A DNA stretch of 22,127 nucleotides, from the IMG/VR virus record IMGVR_UViG_3300042904_000302, positions 1 to 22,127 of that record; one strand, 5' to 3'. The first letter of the stretch is position 1. Each line of letters begins with the position of its first letter. Positions 3,907 to 20,346 of this stretch are shown in pieces. The stretch is from a virus. A model generated the notes under the pieces. The model did no database searches. It was not told where the DNA came from and was given only the letters and a program-made list of their open reading frames with translations. The position numbers and the translations under genes were made by a program.

Positions 3907-3939
3907 TCCTGGTCCTGGTCCTGGTCCTGGTCCTGGTCC
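3907..3939. repeat. Tandem TCCTGG hexamer array (5.5 units)
   Basis: Five and a half perfect copies of TCCTGG, which read CCAGGA on the other strand. Each unit contains a CCTGG (CCWGG, Dcm-type) site. The array lies in the divergent intergenic region between the two predicted promoters. Confidence 0.9.
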
Positions 3940-3970
3940 GCCGACGTTTGAAATTCTTTTGATTATTTAC

Positions 3971-4037: not shown

Positions 4038-4322
4038 ATGTACTCTTCGCTCGCCCAGCCGGCCAAGATCAGCCGACCCTACTCGTCCGACCTGTATCAG
4101 CCGCTATGGACGAACGCCGACATCGAGCGCAAGGCGCTTGAACTGACGCGCCAAGACGGGATGAGGGAGGAGCGCAATGGCGTACGCTCGCTTGCCTGTT
4201 GCATGCGTGACGACGCCACGGCGTACGTCAGGGCATGGCGCATCGGCTGGGCGCAGTCACGCCGTCAACGCAAGGCGGGCCAGGGCCAGGGCCAGGGCCA
4301 GGGCCAGGGCCAGGACGGATGA
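4038..4322 (+). CDS. Small basic protein with a Gly-Gln repeat tail (94 aa)
   Basis: The ATG at 4038 follows GAAAGGTGGTTCGCA, like the starts in the minus-strand array; the longer frame from 3984 lacks a site. The protein begins MYSSLAQPAKISRPY, then a helical region (NADIERKALELTRQDGMREE), a cysteine pair (ACC), a basic stretch (SRRQRKA) and six Gly-Gln dipeptides before DG. The tail is encoded by the GGCCAG array at 4278-4313, so its length may vary between relatives. No family is recognised. The basic C-terminus would suit nucleic-acid binding. It is transcribed by itself, away from both neighbouring gene groups. Confidence 0.55.
   Translation: MYSSLAQPAKISRPYSSDLYQPLWTNADIERKALELTRQDGMREERNGVRSLACCMRDDATAYVRAWRIGWAQSRRQRKAGQGQGQGQGQGQDG
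4278..4313. repeat. Tandem GGCCAG hexamer array (6 units)
   Basis: Six perfect copies encode Gly-Gln repeats at the end of the gene 4038-4322. Read in register it is (CCAGGG)n, one base per unit from the (CCAGGA)n array at 3907-3939, and in the opposite orientation. Confidence 0.9.
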
Positions 4323-15943: not shown

Positions 15944-15968
15944 AGTTTCAAATTTTCATTCGAGCTTG

Positions 15969-15988
15969 AAAGGCTCGAAAGCCTTTTT
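15969..15988 (+). terminator. Hairpin with U-run just upstream of the scaffold gene
   Basis: AAAGGCT, CGAA tetraloop, AGCCTTT, with the T-run continuing to 15988. It ends 11 bp before the scaffold ATG. It may act as a partial terminator that sets portal-to-scaffold output, or as a 5' stabiliser of the scaffold message. Confidence 0.55.
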
Positions 15989-15999
15989 GGAGAACCGCG

Positions 16000-16827
16000 A
16001 TGAAGTTGAAGCGTTTTGTGAAGTCGTTGGACGGGATCGACGAGGCTTTTCATCCTCACTACACGCGACAAGGCGACGGTTACGCCTTGGTGTTGGAGGA
16101 TGAGGGCGTGGCCGCTTCCGCCAACGAGCGTGAGAAGCAGTTGCAGCAGAAGATCGACGAGATGCGCAGCACCAACATCGGTGAGAAGCGCAAGCGCGAG
16201 GAATTGGAGGAGACGCTTCGCCGCTATCAGGCGGCCGGCGTCGATCCCGAAGAAATCCAGCGCTTGCGGGAACTCGACGAGACGATCAGCAAGAGCCAGG
16301 ACGCCGAGTTGATCCGCAAAGGCAAGTATGAGGAAGTGGTCGAGCGCAGGTTGGCGGCGGAACGGAACAAGCTGGCCGACGCCATCAAGAAGCTGGAACG
16401 CGAGCGGGACGATCAGCGCAAGCGCGCCGACGATCGGGAAGCCAAGTGGTCGCGGGAACGCATTTCAACCGAAGCGTCCAACGCCTTGACCAAGGTGGCC
16501 GTCGTCCGGCCGGGAGCCATTACCGATTTGCAACGCCGCGCGCTGGACGCCTTCAAGGTCGATCCTGAAACCGGCCTTCTCAGCACGGAGATGGTCGATC
16601 CCGACACCGGCAAGCCGCTGGATGTGGAGGGCTGGGCGCGATTGCAGACCAAAGAGGCGTCCTACTTCTTCGAGCCGAGCCAGGGCAGCGGCGCGAACGG
16701 CGGTGTGCGCAAGCCGGCGGATCAGACCAAGCGCATGGCGGCGGCCGACATCATCAAGCCCAGCGTGTCGCAGATCGACGACATCGCCAGCGGCAAGATC
16801 GAAGTGGACACCGGTGCGCCGCGCTGA
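16000..16827 (+). CDS. Head scaffolding protein (275 aa)
   Basis: Scaffolds direct coat assembly around the portal and then leave or are degraded. The ATG at 16000 follows TTTGGAGAACCGCG. After an N-terminal globular stretch (KSLDGIDEAFHPHYTRQGDG), residues about 40-160 form a highly charged coiled coil (EREKQLQQKIDEMRS, KRKREELEETLRRYQ, NKLADAIKKLERERDDQRKR). A Pro/Gly-rich C-terminal region with a helix follows (MAAADIIKPSVSQIDDIASG). Composition and position between portal and coat match scaffolds. A strong terminator follows. Confidence 0.85.
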   Translation: MKLKRFVKSLDGIDEAFHPHYTRQGDGYALVLEDEGVAASANEREKQLQQKIDEMRSTNIGEKRKREELEETLRRYQAAGVDPEEIQRLRELDETISKSQDAELIRKGKYEEVVERRLAAERNKLADAIKKLERERDDQRKRADDREAKWSRERISTEASNALTKVAVVRPGAITDLQRRALDAFKVDPETGLLSTEMVDPDTGKPLDVEGWARLQTKEASYFFEPSQGSGANGGVRKPADQTKRMAAADIIKPSVSQIDDIASGKIEVDTGAPR

Positions 16828-16861
16828 ATCCCGTTTGAAGGAATCTTTTTGAAAAAGCAAG

Positions 16862-16887
16862 CGGATGGGTTCCGGCCCATCCGTTTT
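16862..16887 (+). terminator. Rho-independent terminator after the scaffold gene
   Basis: CGGATGGG (16862-16869), six-base loop, CCCATCCG (16876-16883), then TTTTCTT. It ends the packaging/head operon before the exonuclease gene. Confidence 0.85.
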
Positions 16888-16898
16888 CTTGTTATCAT
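16870..16898 (+). promoter_or_regulatory. Possible promoter of the exonuclease cassette
   Basis: TTCCGG, a 17-nt spacer, then TATCAT. The -35 is weak and lies in the terminator loop; the -10 is good. It is 23 nt before the ATG at 16922. Confidence 0.4.
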
Positions 16899-16921
16899 GC
16901 GTTTCAAATTGGAGATCGCCG

Positions 16922-17767
16922 ATGCCGGATTTCTTCTATATCGTGGACGCCCATGCGTGGATTTATCGGGCGTACCATGCCCCCATGTCTGATTTGAAAT
17001 CACCGAAAGGAGAGCCGACGAAAGCCACTTGGCAGTTTACCAAATTGCTTTTCAAACTGGTCAAGGAATCAAGGCCGATGTACATCGCCGTCTGCTTCGA
17101 TTCGCCGTGCAAGGGTTTGAAACGGACCAAGTGGTGTCCTGATTACAAAGCCGGTCGAGGTTTGAAGAACACCGAGATCGGAATCCAGATCGAACGGTGT
17201 CGCCAGATCGTGCAGAAGATGGGTTTGGCGATGTTCATGGAGAATGGCTACGAAGCCGATGATCTGATCGCCACCTTGGCCCGGCGGTGCGTGTCGGATG
17301 AAGTTCACGTTCGTTTGATCTCTCGCGACAAGGACATGATGCAGTTGTTGGAGGACGATCGCGTTCGGATGCTCGATCCCAATGACGGCGAGGAGTTCGG
17401 GGCCAAGGACGTTTATATCAAGTTTCAAGTCAAGCCGAGCCAGTTGGCCGATTACCTGTCTTTGGTGGGGGATGCTTGTGACGGCGTGAAGGGGTTGCCC
17501 AGCGTCGGCCCTCAGACGGCTTCCAATTGGCTGGGCAAGTACGGCAGTTTGAAATCCATTCTCGCCTTGCCGGAGGATTTGAACGACAAGCAACGCAAGT
17601 TGATCCGAACGTATCGGGATCAGGTCAAGATGGCGAAACGACTGGTTCGGTTGTACGACGCCCCGATTGAAATCGATCCTGAAAAGCTCCGATGCCCGTC
17701 GGAGATCGAAATGTTCAATCGCGCGTCGGTGATTTTCAAAGGTCTTGGTTTCAGGAGTTTCGTATGA
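16922..17767 (+). CDS. FEN-family 5'-3' exonuclease (281 aa)
   Basis: Phage FEN enzymes (T4 RNase H and T5 D15 type) remove RNA primers and flaps during replication. The start at 16922 follows TTGGAGATCGCCG. Metal-binding acidic residues are in place: D9 (IVDAHAWIYRAYHA), D60 (CFDSPCKGLKRTKW), E111/D113/D114 (EADDLIATLAR), D136/D138 (SRDKDMMQLL) and D184/D187 (GDACDGVKGLPSVGPQTASN). The last is followed by the H3TH DNA-binding loop. The length matches a stand-alone FEN without a polymerase domain. It sits, unusually, between scaffold and coat. Confidence 0.93.
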   Translation: MPDFFYIVDAHAWIYRAYHAPMSDLKSPKGEPTKATWQFTKLLFKLVKESRPMYIAVCFDSPCKGLKRTKWCPDYKAGRGLKNTEIGIQIERCRQIVQKMGLAMFMENGYEADDLIATLARRCVSDEVHVRLISRDKDMMQLLEDDRVRMLDPNDGEEFGAKDVYIKFQVKPSQLADYLSLVGDACDGVKGLPSVGPQTASNWLGKYGSLKSILALPEDLNDKQRKLIRTYRDQVKMAKRLVRLYDAPIEIDPEKLRCPSEIEMFNRASVIFKGLGFRSFV

Positions 17768-18051
17768 GCAAAGAGGAATTGTTGGATCGGGCGGCGTTGG
17801 CGGTTTTGCCGGGTTGCATTCAATTGACGACGACCCTTCCGCCGCCGGGCATCGCCGGAGCGCCGCCCAAGCCGCCGACGTTCAACATCCAAGGGGCCAC
17901 GCAGATGGCTTACCGGATGGCCGCCGAGTTCGTGAAGGCTCGTGGCCTTGTCGTCGTCGAGGAATTGAAAGGCGTCGAGGAGTTTGAAAACGATGTCCGA
18001 GAAATCAAAGAGCGAACTGCTGATGGCGGTGGAGCGGTGGATCAAGGCTGA
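17764..18051 (+). CDS. Small protein of unknown function (95 aa)
   Basis: It starts in the stop codon of the exonuclease (ATGA). The protein MSKEELLDRAALAVLPGCIQ has a Pro-rich middle (TTTLPPPGIAGAPPKPPTFN) and a helical C-terminal half (ATQMAYRMAAEFVKARGLVV). No family is recognised. Translational coupling to the exonuclease suggests a replication-related role, but nothing in the sequence proves it. Its last 60 bp overlap the next gene. Confidence 0.65.
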   Translation: MSKEELLDRAALAVLPGCIQLTTTLPPPGIAGAPPKPPTFNIQGATQMAYRMAAEFVKARGLVVVEELKGVEEFENDVREIKERTADGGGAVDQG

Positions 18052-18253
18052 ATGGGCGTTCAGGGCCGGACCCTGCGCCTATAACGACTCCGTGGCGAAC
18101 GCCATGTTGGCCGCTGAGGACAATTTGAGGAAGGTCGCCACTGGAAAGAAATGGCTCATGAACGCCGCTCGGCGGTTGGGGGTCGATGTCGATGGGACTT
18201 CTGGAAAGGATAAAAAACGAAATGGAAAGTCAAAAAGTCGCCGAGCAGGGTGA
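17993..18253 (+). CDS. Small helical basic protein of unknown function (86 aa)
   Basis: The ATG at 17993 has GAGGAG 10 nt upstream and overlaps the previous gene by 59 bp. The protein MSEKSKSELLMAVERWIKAE is mostly helical, followed by AYNDSVANAMLAAEDNLRKV and a very basic end (KDKKRNGKSKSRRAG) that could bind nucleic acid. No family is recognised. The long overlap on either side is unusual even for this compact genome. Confidence 0.6.
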   Translation: MSEKSKSELLMAVERWIKAEWAFRAGPCAYNDSVANAMLAAEDNLRKVATGKKWLMNAARRLGVDVDGTSGKDKKRNGKSKSRRAG

Positions 18254-18647
18254 TTCCCAGCCGTTGCCGACCGAAGGCAAGCGGGACGTGTTCCCTGAGA
18301 TGCGGGCGGCGTTCTTGAAGATGTACGAAGAAAGGATGGCGTTGGGAATCCAGAGGTATGGCCGCACTTTGCAAACGCACAACGGGCGGAACGTCGGCGT
18401 GGACGTGTTGGAGGAATTGTTCGACGCCTTCGCGTACGCCATGCAGTTCGTGATGGAGCATTCGGATTTGGGCCGGCAGATGCAGCAGTATCGCGATGAA
18501 GCGATCATGCTCAGACAGCGAACGGAAGCGGTTCGGGATTTCATTCTGAACCGAACTTTGGTCACGGACCAAGCGACTTATTCGCTGTTGACTGAAATCG
18601 CTGATAGGCTGGATATGAAACAGCTTCCGTCCGTCGTGGCGGAATGA
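18222..18647 (+). CDS. Small MazG-like/nucleotide pyrophosphohydrolase-like protein (141 aa)
   Basis: ATGs at 18186 and 18192 are in frame, but the one at 18222 has GGAAAGGA 11 nt upstream and is preferred. The protein has a helical core: MRAAFLKMYEERMALGIQRY, then G-TLQTHNGRNVGVDVLEELF and DAFAYAMQFV. The pattern YG--L---NGR----D-LEEL-DA--Y is typical of small phage all-alpha NTP pyrophosphohydrolases, with E and D residues as the likely Mg site. Catalysis is inferred. It would complement the larger MazG-like protein at 7841-9445 in nucleotide-pool control. Confidence 0.6.
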   Translation: MESQKVAEQGDSQPLPTEGKRDVFPEMRAAFLKMYEERMALGIQRYGRTLQTHNGRNVGVDVLEELFDAFAYAMQFVMEHSDLGRQMQQYRDEAIMLRQRTEAVRDFILNRTLVTDQATYSLLTEIADRLDMKQLPSVVAE

Positions 18648-18660
18648 ATCGGCGGCGTGC

Positions 18661-18690
18661 TTGCCGGCGCAGCTAAGAATACGCTACCAT
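18661..18690 (+). promoter_or_regulatory. Possible promoter upstream of the 96-aa gene
   Basis: TTGCCG, an 18-nt spacer, then TACCAT, about 50 nt before the ATG at 18740. Confidence 0.35.
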
Positions 18691-18739
18691 TGGACCTACG
18701 CGGAAAGATGCGAGAGACGGGATTGAGGGCGTATTTGGA

Positions 18740-19030
18740 ATGACGGATGATCTGTTCGACCGGATTTCAAAATCTGTCTTGAAAATGGATCGAAGCGAGC
18801 TTGACGCGGCTTGGCGGGAAATAGGCCGCGTCAAGCTCCTGATTCGAACGGCGGCGGGGTTGTCCAGGTCCAGCGTCAGGGACCGGCTTTTCAAAGCCAA
18901 CCAAACGCTTGATGTCGTGTTGGATGAAATGTATTTCAGGGACAACCCCTATATTCGTCGCAACCATCCGAATTTCTCATTCACCAGATTTTATTTGAAG
19001 CCTGTTGACGCCGTGCATTCCCGGCTGTAA
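18740..19030 (+). CDS. Small protein of unknown function (96 aa)
   Basis: The ATG at 18740 lies after GAGGGCGTATTTGGA. The protein MTDDLFDRISKSVLKMDRSE is helical in its first half (DAAWREIGRVKLLIRTAAGL) and ends in a Tyr/Phe/His-rich region (YIRRNHPNFSFTRFYLK). No family is recognised. A 14-bp perfect inverted repeat lies inside the coding sequence (18797-18838). The coat-gene promoter overlaps its 3' end. Confidence 0.65.
   Translation: MTDDLFDRISKSVLKMDRSELDAAWREIGRVKLLIRTAAGLSRSSVRDRLFKANQTLDVVLDEMYFRDNPYIRRNHPNFSFTRFYLKPVDAVHSRL
18797..18838. repeat. 14-bp perfect inverted repeat inside a gene
   Basis: GAGCTTGACGCGGC (18797-18810), 14-nt loop, GCCGCGTCAAGCTC (18825-18838). It would form a very stable hairpin in the mRNA of the gene 18740-19030, or a palindromic site in the DNA. 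Confidence 0.85.
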
Positions 19031-19033
19031 CAT
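19005..19033 (+). promoter_or_regulatory. Predicted promoter of the coat gene
   Basis: TTGACG, a 17-nt spacer, then TAACAT. The -35 matches the sigma70 consensus at five of six positions. The predicted start near 19040 gives a leader of about 165 nt. Confidence 0.6.
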
Positions 19034-19059
19034 TTCGTCATAGCTCAGAAATCAAAGTC

Positions 19060-19189
19060 GTCTTGGTTGGCGGGGCCGGTCCAAGACACGTCGGATGGCG
19101 GGGCTGTCCGACACCCTTCCGGTGGAAGGCACACTTTGAAACGAGCCGATTTCTCGATCGGTGCGTTTTTCGGTTTGTCTTTTTTTTTT
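19060..19189 (+). promoter_or_regulatory. Structured leader of the coat gene, four hairpins and a U-tract
   Basis: H1 is GTCTTGG/CCAAGAC (19060-19066 with 19081-19087). H2 is GTCGGA/TCCGAC (19090-19095 with 19107-19112). H3 is CCTTCC/GGAAGG with a 3-nt loop (19115-19129). H4 is CCGAT/ATCGG (19146-19161), followed by T5 and then a run of ten Ts (19180-19189) just before the ribosome site. The loops of H1 and H2 both present GGCGGGGC. H4 plus the U-tracts resembles an attenuator. Confidence 0.65.
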
Positions 19190-19203
19190 GGAAGGGTCAC
19201 ATC

Positions 19204-20346
19204 GTGGCAAACGATCTGTCTGTATTGGTTCCCAAGCTGCTGGCGCAAGGTTTGAAGACGCTTCGGCAGCAGGCGTTTCTTCCCCGAATCATCAATCGCG
19301 GTTATCAGGACGAAGCGGCGCGCCCCGGCGATGTCGTGACCATCCCGATTCCGTCGGCCGTCACCGCCGAGGACGTGGTGCCGTCCAACGTGCCGCCGGT
19401 GGACACCGACATCGGGCCGACCAGCGTCACGATCACGCTGGACAAGTGGAAAAAGGCCGACTTCACCCTCACTGACAAGGACATGGAACTTGTCAGCCTG
19501 GGCGTCATTCCGATGCAGGCCGAGGAAGCGGTGAAGGTGCTGGTCAACGCGGTCAACGCCTCGATCTTCGACCAATACCACGGCATTTACGGCTACGTCG
19601 GCACGGCAGGCACGACTCCGTTCGGCAGCGGCTTGGACGAAGCCGTGGACGCGCGCAAGGTGCTGTTCAACCAGATGGCCCCGCCCGACAACCGCTCGAT
19701 CGTCCTCAACGCCGACGCCGAAGCCAACGCGCTCAAGCGGCCGGAGTTCAGCAATCAGCAATGGCGCGTGGGCATCAACGAAGCGGCCATCGCCAGCGGC
19801 CAGATCGCCCGCACGATGGGCTTCGACTGGTACGCCCACCAGCTTGTGCCGTCGCACACCGCCGGCACGGTCACTGGCACGATCACCGTCAACGCCAACA
19901 CGGCGGCCGGCGTCGAGAGCGTCGTCCTGGCGGCCGGTTCCGGCGAAGCCATTGCCTTGAAGCGCGGCGACATCATCACCTTCGCCGGCCACACGCAGAC
20001 CTATGCCGTGCAGGCGGACTTGACCGTGGCCGCCGATTCGACCGGCACGGTGAGCATTCAGCCGCCTTTGCAGGCGGCGGTGACGACCAGCACTTCGATC
20101 ACCGTGAAGGCCAGCCACGCGGTCAATCTCGCGTTCCACCGCGACGCCTTCGCCTTCGTCACCAAGCCGCTGAACAAGGTGCCGGAAGGACTCGGAAGCA
20201 TCATGCAGAGCATGGTGGACCCGCTTTCCGGCGTGGCCCTTCGCCTGGAAATCTCGCGTCAGTACAAGCAGGTGAACTGGTCGTTCGACATCCTGTGGGG
20301 CTGCAAGCTGGTTCGCGCGGCGCTCGCGACCCGCATCGCCGGCTGA
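19204..20346 (+). CDS. Major coat protein, P22 gp5-like (380 aa)
   Basis: This is the main head protein of the HK97 fold. The GTG at 19204 with GGAAGGG 7 nt upstream is the start; the open frame further upstream runs through the hairpin leader and lacks a ribosome site. The N-terminal part reads LAQGLKTLRQQAFLPRIINR, GYQDEAARPGDVVTIPIPSA, and then TITLDKWKKADFTLTDKDME. P22-type coat signatures follow: FDQYHGIYGYVGT, IARTMGFDWYAHQLVPSHT, a strand-rich inserted domain (about 221-305) and a final VNWSFDILWGCKLVRAAL. Codon use is more C-ending than in its neighbours, as expected of a very highly expressed gene. Confidence 0.88.
   Translation: MANDLSVLVPKLLAQGLKTLRQQAFLPRIINRGYQDEAARPGDVVTIPIPSAVTAEDVVPSNVPPVDTDIGPTSVTITLDKWKKADFTLTDKDMELVSLGVIPMQAEEAVKVLVNAVNASIFDQYHGIYGYVGTAGTTPFGSGLDEAVDARKVLFNQMAPPDNRSIVLNADAEANALKRPEFSNQQWRVGINEAAIASGQIARTMGFDWYAHQLVPSHTAGTVTGTITVNANTAAGVESVVLAAGSGEAIALKRGDIITFAGHTQTYAVQADLTVAADSTGTVSIQPPLQAAVTTSTSITVKASHAVNLAFHRDAFAFVTKPLNKVPEGLGSIMQSMVDPLSGVALRLEISRQYKQVNWSFDILWGCKLVRAALATRIAG

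Follow-up and report, generated by a model that had tools for sequence, protein, structure and literature searches.

The leader of the P22-type coat protein gene in the window, as we refer to the whole 22,127-nucleotide stretch of viral DNA that was analysed (IMG/VR record IMGVR_UViG_3300042904_000302), carries a tandem array of three RNA hairpins, the loops of which are closed by a C-G pair and begin with GG. The same kind of hairpin is found on the mRNA strand in the coat leaders of relatives and in front of their scaffold genes; its loop is conserved and its stem sequence is free, it is specific for head genes, and at some scaffold genes the loop is itself the Shine-Dalgarno sequence. Judged from these sequence comparisons, the best explanation appears to be an operator array for head-protein synthesis that would be read by a phage head protein, a reading that we hold with about as much belief as doubt.

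The Hairpin Array in the Coat Leader of the Window

Four hairpins were predicted in the coat leader (positions 19040-19203; Table 1), the minimum free energy (MFE) structure of which has a z-score of -4.74 relative to shuffled sequences. A preliminary description, made from the letters of the window, had proposed that this leader forms an array of hairpins; the folding confirms this, and the array is more extensive than was first noted. The first two hairpins, H1 and H2, had been described as two sites sharing the loop GGCGGGGC. They do possess a common loop core, but these bases do not form an open 8-base loop: they read GGC-GGG-GCC/GC, where GGC pairs with the GC(C) that follows GGG, so that inner pairs of the stem are included and only GGG is left unpaired, as a triloop on a C-G closing pair. 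H1 and H2 share their loop, as had been stated, and H3 is a further member of this C(GGN)G class, which brings the number of such sites to three (loops GGG, GGG, and GGT), separated by gaps of 2 nt each. The 8-mer GGCGGGGC shows a mild excess in the window (5 occurrences vs. 2.07 expected) and was ruled out as the conserved loop, as the relatives share CGG.G alone. None of 5000 shuffled versions of the leader contained two perfect C(GGN)G hairpins (stems of at least 6 pairs), and on the + strand of the 22-kb window the only perfect C(GGN)G hairpins are H2 and H3, a count that leaves out H1 with its one bulge. A covariance model, of which the window leader is a training sequence, matches at positions 19094-19129 (H2-H3). 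The last hairpin of the array, H3, ends 74 nt before the coat start, because H4 intervenes. Pairing of the loops with GCCCCGCC within the coat gene (19678-19685) was also seen, but it was near chance level and was rejected. With tandem C(GGN)G hairpins on the mRNA strand of a P22-type coat leader, the window array may be regarded as a member of a family of putative GG-loop head-gene operators, in which GGAU or GGGAU loops also occur.

Table 1. Features of the head-gene region of the window
Feature	Positions	Strand	Description
Scaffold gene	16000..16827	+	phrog_206 head scaffolding protein, 1.3e-23
Possible sigma-70-like promoter	19005..19033	+	TTGACG-17-TAACAT; 9/12 match; 1 found vs. 0.8 expected by chance in region
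H1	19060..19087	+	GTCTTGGTTGGC[GGG]GCCGGTCCAAGAC; 12 pairs, one bulged U; C-G closes GGG triloop; folding -16.4 kcal/mol
H2	19090..19112	+	GTCGGATGGC[GGG]GCTGTCCGAC; 10-pair stem including two G-U pairs; C(GGG)G triloop; -13.9 kcal/mol
ACCCUUCC	19113..19120	+	5' arm of H3 and flank; alternative partner of coat Shine-Dalgarno GGAAGGGU (19190-19197)
H3	19115..19129	+	CCTTCC[GGT]GGAAGG; 6-pair stem; C(GGT)G triloop; -6.6 kcal/mol; covariance-model match
H4	19138..19169	+	terminator-like hairpin, then T runs; -13.8 kcal/mol; scan at chance level; not conserved
T10 tract	19180..19189	+	immediately 5' of Shine-Dalgarno sequence; from sequence
Coat Shine-Dalgarno sequence	19190..19196	+	GGAAGGG; from sequence; fully paired in predicted ensemble
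P22-type coat protein gene	19204..20346	+	GTG start, 380 aa; Pfam P22_CoatProtein 3.8e-24; phrog_283 9e-87

The scaffold and coat genes of the window are separated by inserted genes, and the array stays with the coat gene. The region between them (16865-19030) contains a gene for a 5'-3' exonuclease together with small unknown genes; in most relatives the scaffold and coat genes are adjacent. Terminator-like hairpins with T runs are present after the scaffold gene (16840-16890; CGGATGGGTTCCGGCCCATCCGTTTTCTT) and just before the scaffold ribosome site (15955-15985; AAAGGCTCGAAAGCCTTTTTGGAG), and the head genes of the window appear to belong to separate transcription units. No GG-loop hairpins were found in the scaffold leader of the window, and hence scaffold feedback would not be conserved there. 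Elsewhere in the window, two short hexamer-repeat tracts (~3920-3950 and ~4280-4310) are read in the list of open reading frames (ORFs) as VLVLVLVL and GPGPGPGP/QGQGQG.

Distribution of the Hairpins in Coat Leaders and Their Specificity for Head Genes

Relatives of the coat protein were drawn from IMG/VR, named phages and bacterial genomes, and they provided 76 non-redundant leaders of P22-type coat genes. At least one hairpin with a GGN, GGAU, or GGGAU loop was present within 300 nt in 51 of the 76 leaders and at least two in 34, with 25 lacking a match at the strict definition. When the count was confined to the 180 nt preceding the start and to C(GGN)G stems of at least 6 pairs, the mRNA strand held 55 hairpins and the opposite strand 0, as compared to 45 and 24, respectively, in the remaining 695 kb of flanks. 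When stems of at least 5 pairs were accepted, 77 were observed vs. 0.7 in shuffles, and the opposite strand of these leaders held 0 to 1 depending upon the stem cut-off. Due to this strand bias, the element is an RNA element and not a DNA palindrome. The loops of the 74 C(GGN)G hairpins were GGT (35), GGC (17), GGA (13), and GGG (9), and stem lengths in the relatives ranged from 5 to 11 pairs. Neighbouring hairpins are mostly spaced by 2-7 nt, and about 30-50 nt usually lie between the end of the last one and the coat start codon. The leaders of the relatives show this arrangement on stems that are unrelated; representative are those of one relative with gatgtc[GGC]gacatc and ccttcc[GGC]ggaagg, and of the Vibrio phage MAR10, with taacggc[GGG]gtcgtta and ggtttc[GGG]gaaacc.

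R1, a covariance model built for the tandem element, gave 10 matches with E ≤ 1 in 610 kb of sequence, nine of which were coat leaders, including two outside the training set. When R1 was applied to 49 non-training loci (435 kb), each of the top 11 matches was a coat leader, lay on the coding strand and ranked above the first false match; at locus L037, an inserted ORF stands between the leader and the coat frame. The next four matches on these loci were all on the minus strand, with E of 0.3 or more. The leader at L037 (5310-6030) has three C(GGC)G hairpins in tandem; a free-standing ORF comes next, and only after it the coat frame, in which the usual ATG is not visible. Read by eye, this ORF resembles an HNH/AP2-type homing endonuclease, and it appears to have been inserted immediately behind the leader; a match to an Rfam intron was not found.

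The occurrence of tandem pairs was also determined in 609 kb consisting of the window, MAR10 and nine IMG/VR contigs, whole or near-whole, two of them lacking about 2 kb each. A total of 13 pairs were present, all on the mRNA strand, with 12 before coat and one before scaffold; in these 11 genomes no tandem pair was found before any other gene, tail genes included. Additionally, a search with the RNA model of five bacterial genomes related to the coat family revealed no host gene with the element among the 150 candidates scored per genome.

Conserved Loops, Variable Stems and Loop Classes

In an alignment of 19 tandem leaders, CGG.G constituted the sole invariant columns in each hairpin, and the stem letters of neighbouring hairpins agreed no more often than expected at random (0.97 of 4 positions). 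The match between neighbouring hairpins in the third base of the loop was not significant (p = 0.06). The earlier argument that different stems with the same loop indicate selection upon an RNA contact is strongly supported by this comparison of relatives. The loop sequence had likewise been expected to persist in relatives, and this is true of the C(GGN)G core but not of the exact 8-base loop. Covariation in relatives, which had been put forward as a check, was observed in the clade that can be aligned by homology (alignment A3), where compensatory stem changes yielded a covariation score of 0.317 vs. 0.222 shuffled (0/500), the rows of A3 having been chosen by homology and the structure read from its own members. 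The pair counts from the 19-sequence set (alignment A4) are inflated, as its rows were selected for perfect hairpins, and they do not constitute covariation evidence.

In addition to the triloops, a tetraloop class (GGAU) is present in phages of Klebsiella, Escherichia coli, Salicola, Rhizobium, Caulobacter, and Synechococcus; pentaloops (GGGAU) form another class, with members in prophages of relatives of Nisaea and Thalassobaculum, among others. The classes cluster strongly when placed on the coat tree, where the tetraloop class required 4 changes vs. 9.7 when shuffled and the pentaloop class 5 vs. 8.8, with 5 changes for all labelled rows. The GGAU loop is common to phages of Escherichia/Klebsiella and of Rhizobium/Caulobacter. 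As both GGG (Vibrio) and GGAU (Escherichia, Klebsiella) are found in phages of gammaproteobacterial hosts, the loop follows the phage lineage and not the host. Two further features of these leaders may be mentioned here. In the scaffold/coat leaders of L108, L110, L025, and L112, a conserved GCGGYGC linker, possibly a two-pair GC[GGY]GC mini-hairpin, is often located between two GGAU hairpins, and a number of alphaproteobacterial relatives (L039, L042, L048, L057, and L118-L122) contain variant pentaloops (CGGGT, CGGGA, CGGGC) and imperfect GGGAU hairpins that are missed by the strict definition.

Hairpins at Scaffold Genes

Outside coat leaders, the hairpins are concentrated in front of the scaffold gene, 500-1000 nt upstream. 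Of 52 scaffold genes, 11 have a hairpin loop as their Shine-Dalgarno sequence, as compared to 2 among 495 other ORFs (Fisher p = 1e-10) and with 0 of 63 coat genes doing so. These scaffold hairpins are of the form C(GGA)G or C(GGG)G and end 2-7 nt before the ATG; the scaffold start of the Salicola phage CGphi29 reads GGCT[GGAT]AGCC-ATG. In HK639, a pair of GGAU hairpins is present in the scaffold leader and there is no room before the coat gene. P22 has no GG-loop hairpin at either the scaffold (gene 8) or the coat (gene 5) start, and it has almost no leader. It had been remarked earlier that assembly feedback in P22-like phages is known for the scaffold rather than the coat, and the coverage of relatives' scaffold ribosome-binding sites by such hairpins fits with this. 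This overlap is the strongest hint as to mechanism, and it lends indirect support to a function as translational operators.

Proposed Function and Alternative Explanations

If the array acts as an operator, a phage-encoded head protein, either scaffold or coat, would read the GG loops and translation would be adjusted to the pool of unassembled subunits. On the scaffold mRNA of many relatives, protein bound to the loop would block ribosome entry, repressing by covering the Shine-Dalgarno sequence, whereas on the coat mRNA the two or three copies would act from upstream. The preliminary description had named coat autoregulation or a phage factor; the candidate reader is probably phage-encoded, because the loop class follows the coat lineage and not the host, and both the presence of a protein reader and its identity as a head protein are what we infer from these patterns. 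A function exerted only in cis, or other common factors, would also track the coat lineage. The operator reading is weakened by the 25 of 76 leaders without a strict match, by the absence of the hairpin in P22, and by folding in a 190-nt context, where P > 0.5 was obtained for 35 of 81 hairpins.

The hairpins could alternatively be static structures that protect the coat mRNA or set the strength of its ribosome site without any reader, C(GGN)G being kept as a favourable loop. No regulator is needed in this case, coat and scaffold are abundant proteins, and, where the intercistronic leader is short, the hairpins often stand directly 3' of the scaffold stop codon. However, tandem pairs precede no other gene, tail genes included, in the 11 whole or near-whole genomes, the existence of three loop sizes, all beginning with GG and sorted by lineage, fits recognition better than stability, and scaffold leaders use the same loop as Shine-Dalgarno sequence; we consider a purely static role rather unlikely. 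Recognition by a host RNA-binding protein of the CsrA/RsmA type, reading paired GG(A) loops about 20 nt apart, is very improbable. Sites of this type often come in twos, which a single dimer can bridge, and the tetra- and pentaloop members of the present family have GGAU or GGGAU in C-G-closed loops in tandem. CsrA sites also carry GGA in hairpin loops (PMC7652899). However, in sites selected by SELEX, ACA and GGA are 100% conserved, the loops are mostly of six nt and the stems mostly of four or fewer pairs (PMC7652899), whereas GGA was not found in every site of the 76 leaders, where the loops are mostly of three nt and N is mostly T (35 of 74) and A in 13. Nor do these C-G-closed triloops, on long stems of 5 to 11 pairs, show a six-nt loop with an upstream AC pairing to a downstream GU on a stem of four pairs or less. 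The loop class, moreover, tracks the phage and not the host, and CsrA as the reader was rejected on loop sequence.

Two further alternatives concern the segment between H3 and the coat start. The MFE structure of the full leader contains a helix between ACCCUUCC and GGAAGGGU in which H3 is lost and the Shine-Dalgarno sequence is wholly hidden, and forcing H3 costs about 9 kcal/mol in the predicted ensemble. The leader might be a switch between two mutually exclusive structures, where a factor stabilizing H3 would alter coat translation. In tandem leaders, the last hairpin also has a pyrimidine-rich 5' arm (0.71 vs. 0.49, p = 0.0024, post hoc). However, with H3 enforced the Shine-Dalgarno sequence is still predicted to be about 90% paired, and no difference was found between the first and last hairpins in the strength of pairing with the Shine-Dalgarno region (p = 0.11). 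That H3 would fold first during transcription bears both ways, as it speaks against such a switch and is also the reason why H3 could act as one. The switch, for which conservation across relatives appears weak, seems improbable, and it could coexist with the operator reading. A general sequestering of the Shine-Dalgarno sequence by the last hairpin was rejected, the duplex energies being not different (p = 0.11) and the post hoc pyrimidine bias standing alone. Lastly, H4 and the U tracts had been suggested to form an attenuator, which would be under the control of H1/H2. H4 is followed by TTTTT and T10, but the region has 3 terminator-like sites including H4 vs. 4.2 expected, and a terminator-like site lies between the hairpins and the start in 4 of 51 hairpin-bearing leaders. 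As H4 is at chance level, a conserved G+C-rich hairpin with a U tract, as expected of an intrinsic terminator or attenuator, was not found; H4 was rejected as part of the conserved element and attenuation is hardly credible. The promoter upstream of the array, described earlier as good, likewise proved to be a chance-level match; a companion promoter is present in 1 of 45 relatives' leaders, and it was not accepted as a conserved companion of the array.

Relation to Known Systems and Significance

The scaffolding protein of P22 limits its own synthesis after transcription, and we know of no defined RNA site for feedback of this type. The system proposed here would involve the same gene pair, the same capsid lineage and post-transcriptional control by a head protein, but the element precedes coat as well as scaffold, and since P22 lacks the hairpin at gene 8 and gene 5, the array is not simply the P22 system. 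In RNA phages of the MS2 type, the operator is a small hairpin at or near the ribosome site, the loop of which is read by the coat protein. The hairpins described here are also small, but MS2 is another type of virus with another coat fold, and its operator is a single hairpin with its own loop and bulge, whereas the present C(GGN)G hairpins are in tandem before the coat gene itself, with stems free in sequence and usually without a bulge. In T4, the CUUCGG hairpins of phage mRNAs similarly show one recurrent loop on different stems; UUCG is a tetraloop with special thermodynamics and a wide distribution, whereas the GG loops vary in size and are confined to head-gene leaders.

At the gathering threshold, Rfam 15 yielded no match for the window or for ten isolate/prophage loci, and at E ≤ 1 a search of six relatives gave one weak minus-strand match to IRES_Bip only (17.1 bits vs. 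a gathering score of 40). In the open-access literature, to which the search was confined, no description of a GG-loop array was found, and an earlier one may exist elsewhere.

How double-stranded DNA phages match the synthesis of scaffold and coat to assembly is an old question. Tentatively, and with slightly more doubt than belief, we suggest that a widespread RNA operator system of tailed phages may be involved, in which a coat or scaffold protein of the P22 fold would recognize GG loops on scaffold and coat mRNAs, the state of assembly would set the synthesis of both proteins, and loop size would have coevolved with the coat lineage. The presence of this compact RNA signature in isolates of Vibrio, Escherichia, Klebsiella, Salicola, Rhizobium, Caulobacter, and Synechococcus phages provides concrete, testable sites, and the conservation of the loop points to the bases that are worth changing.
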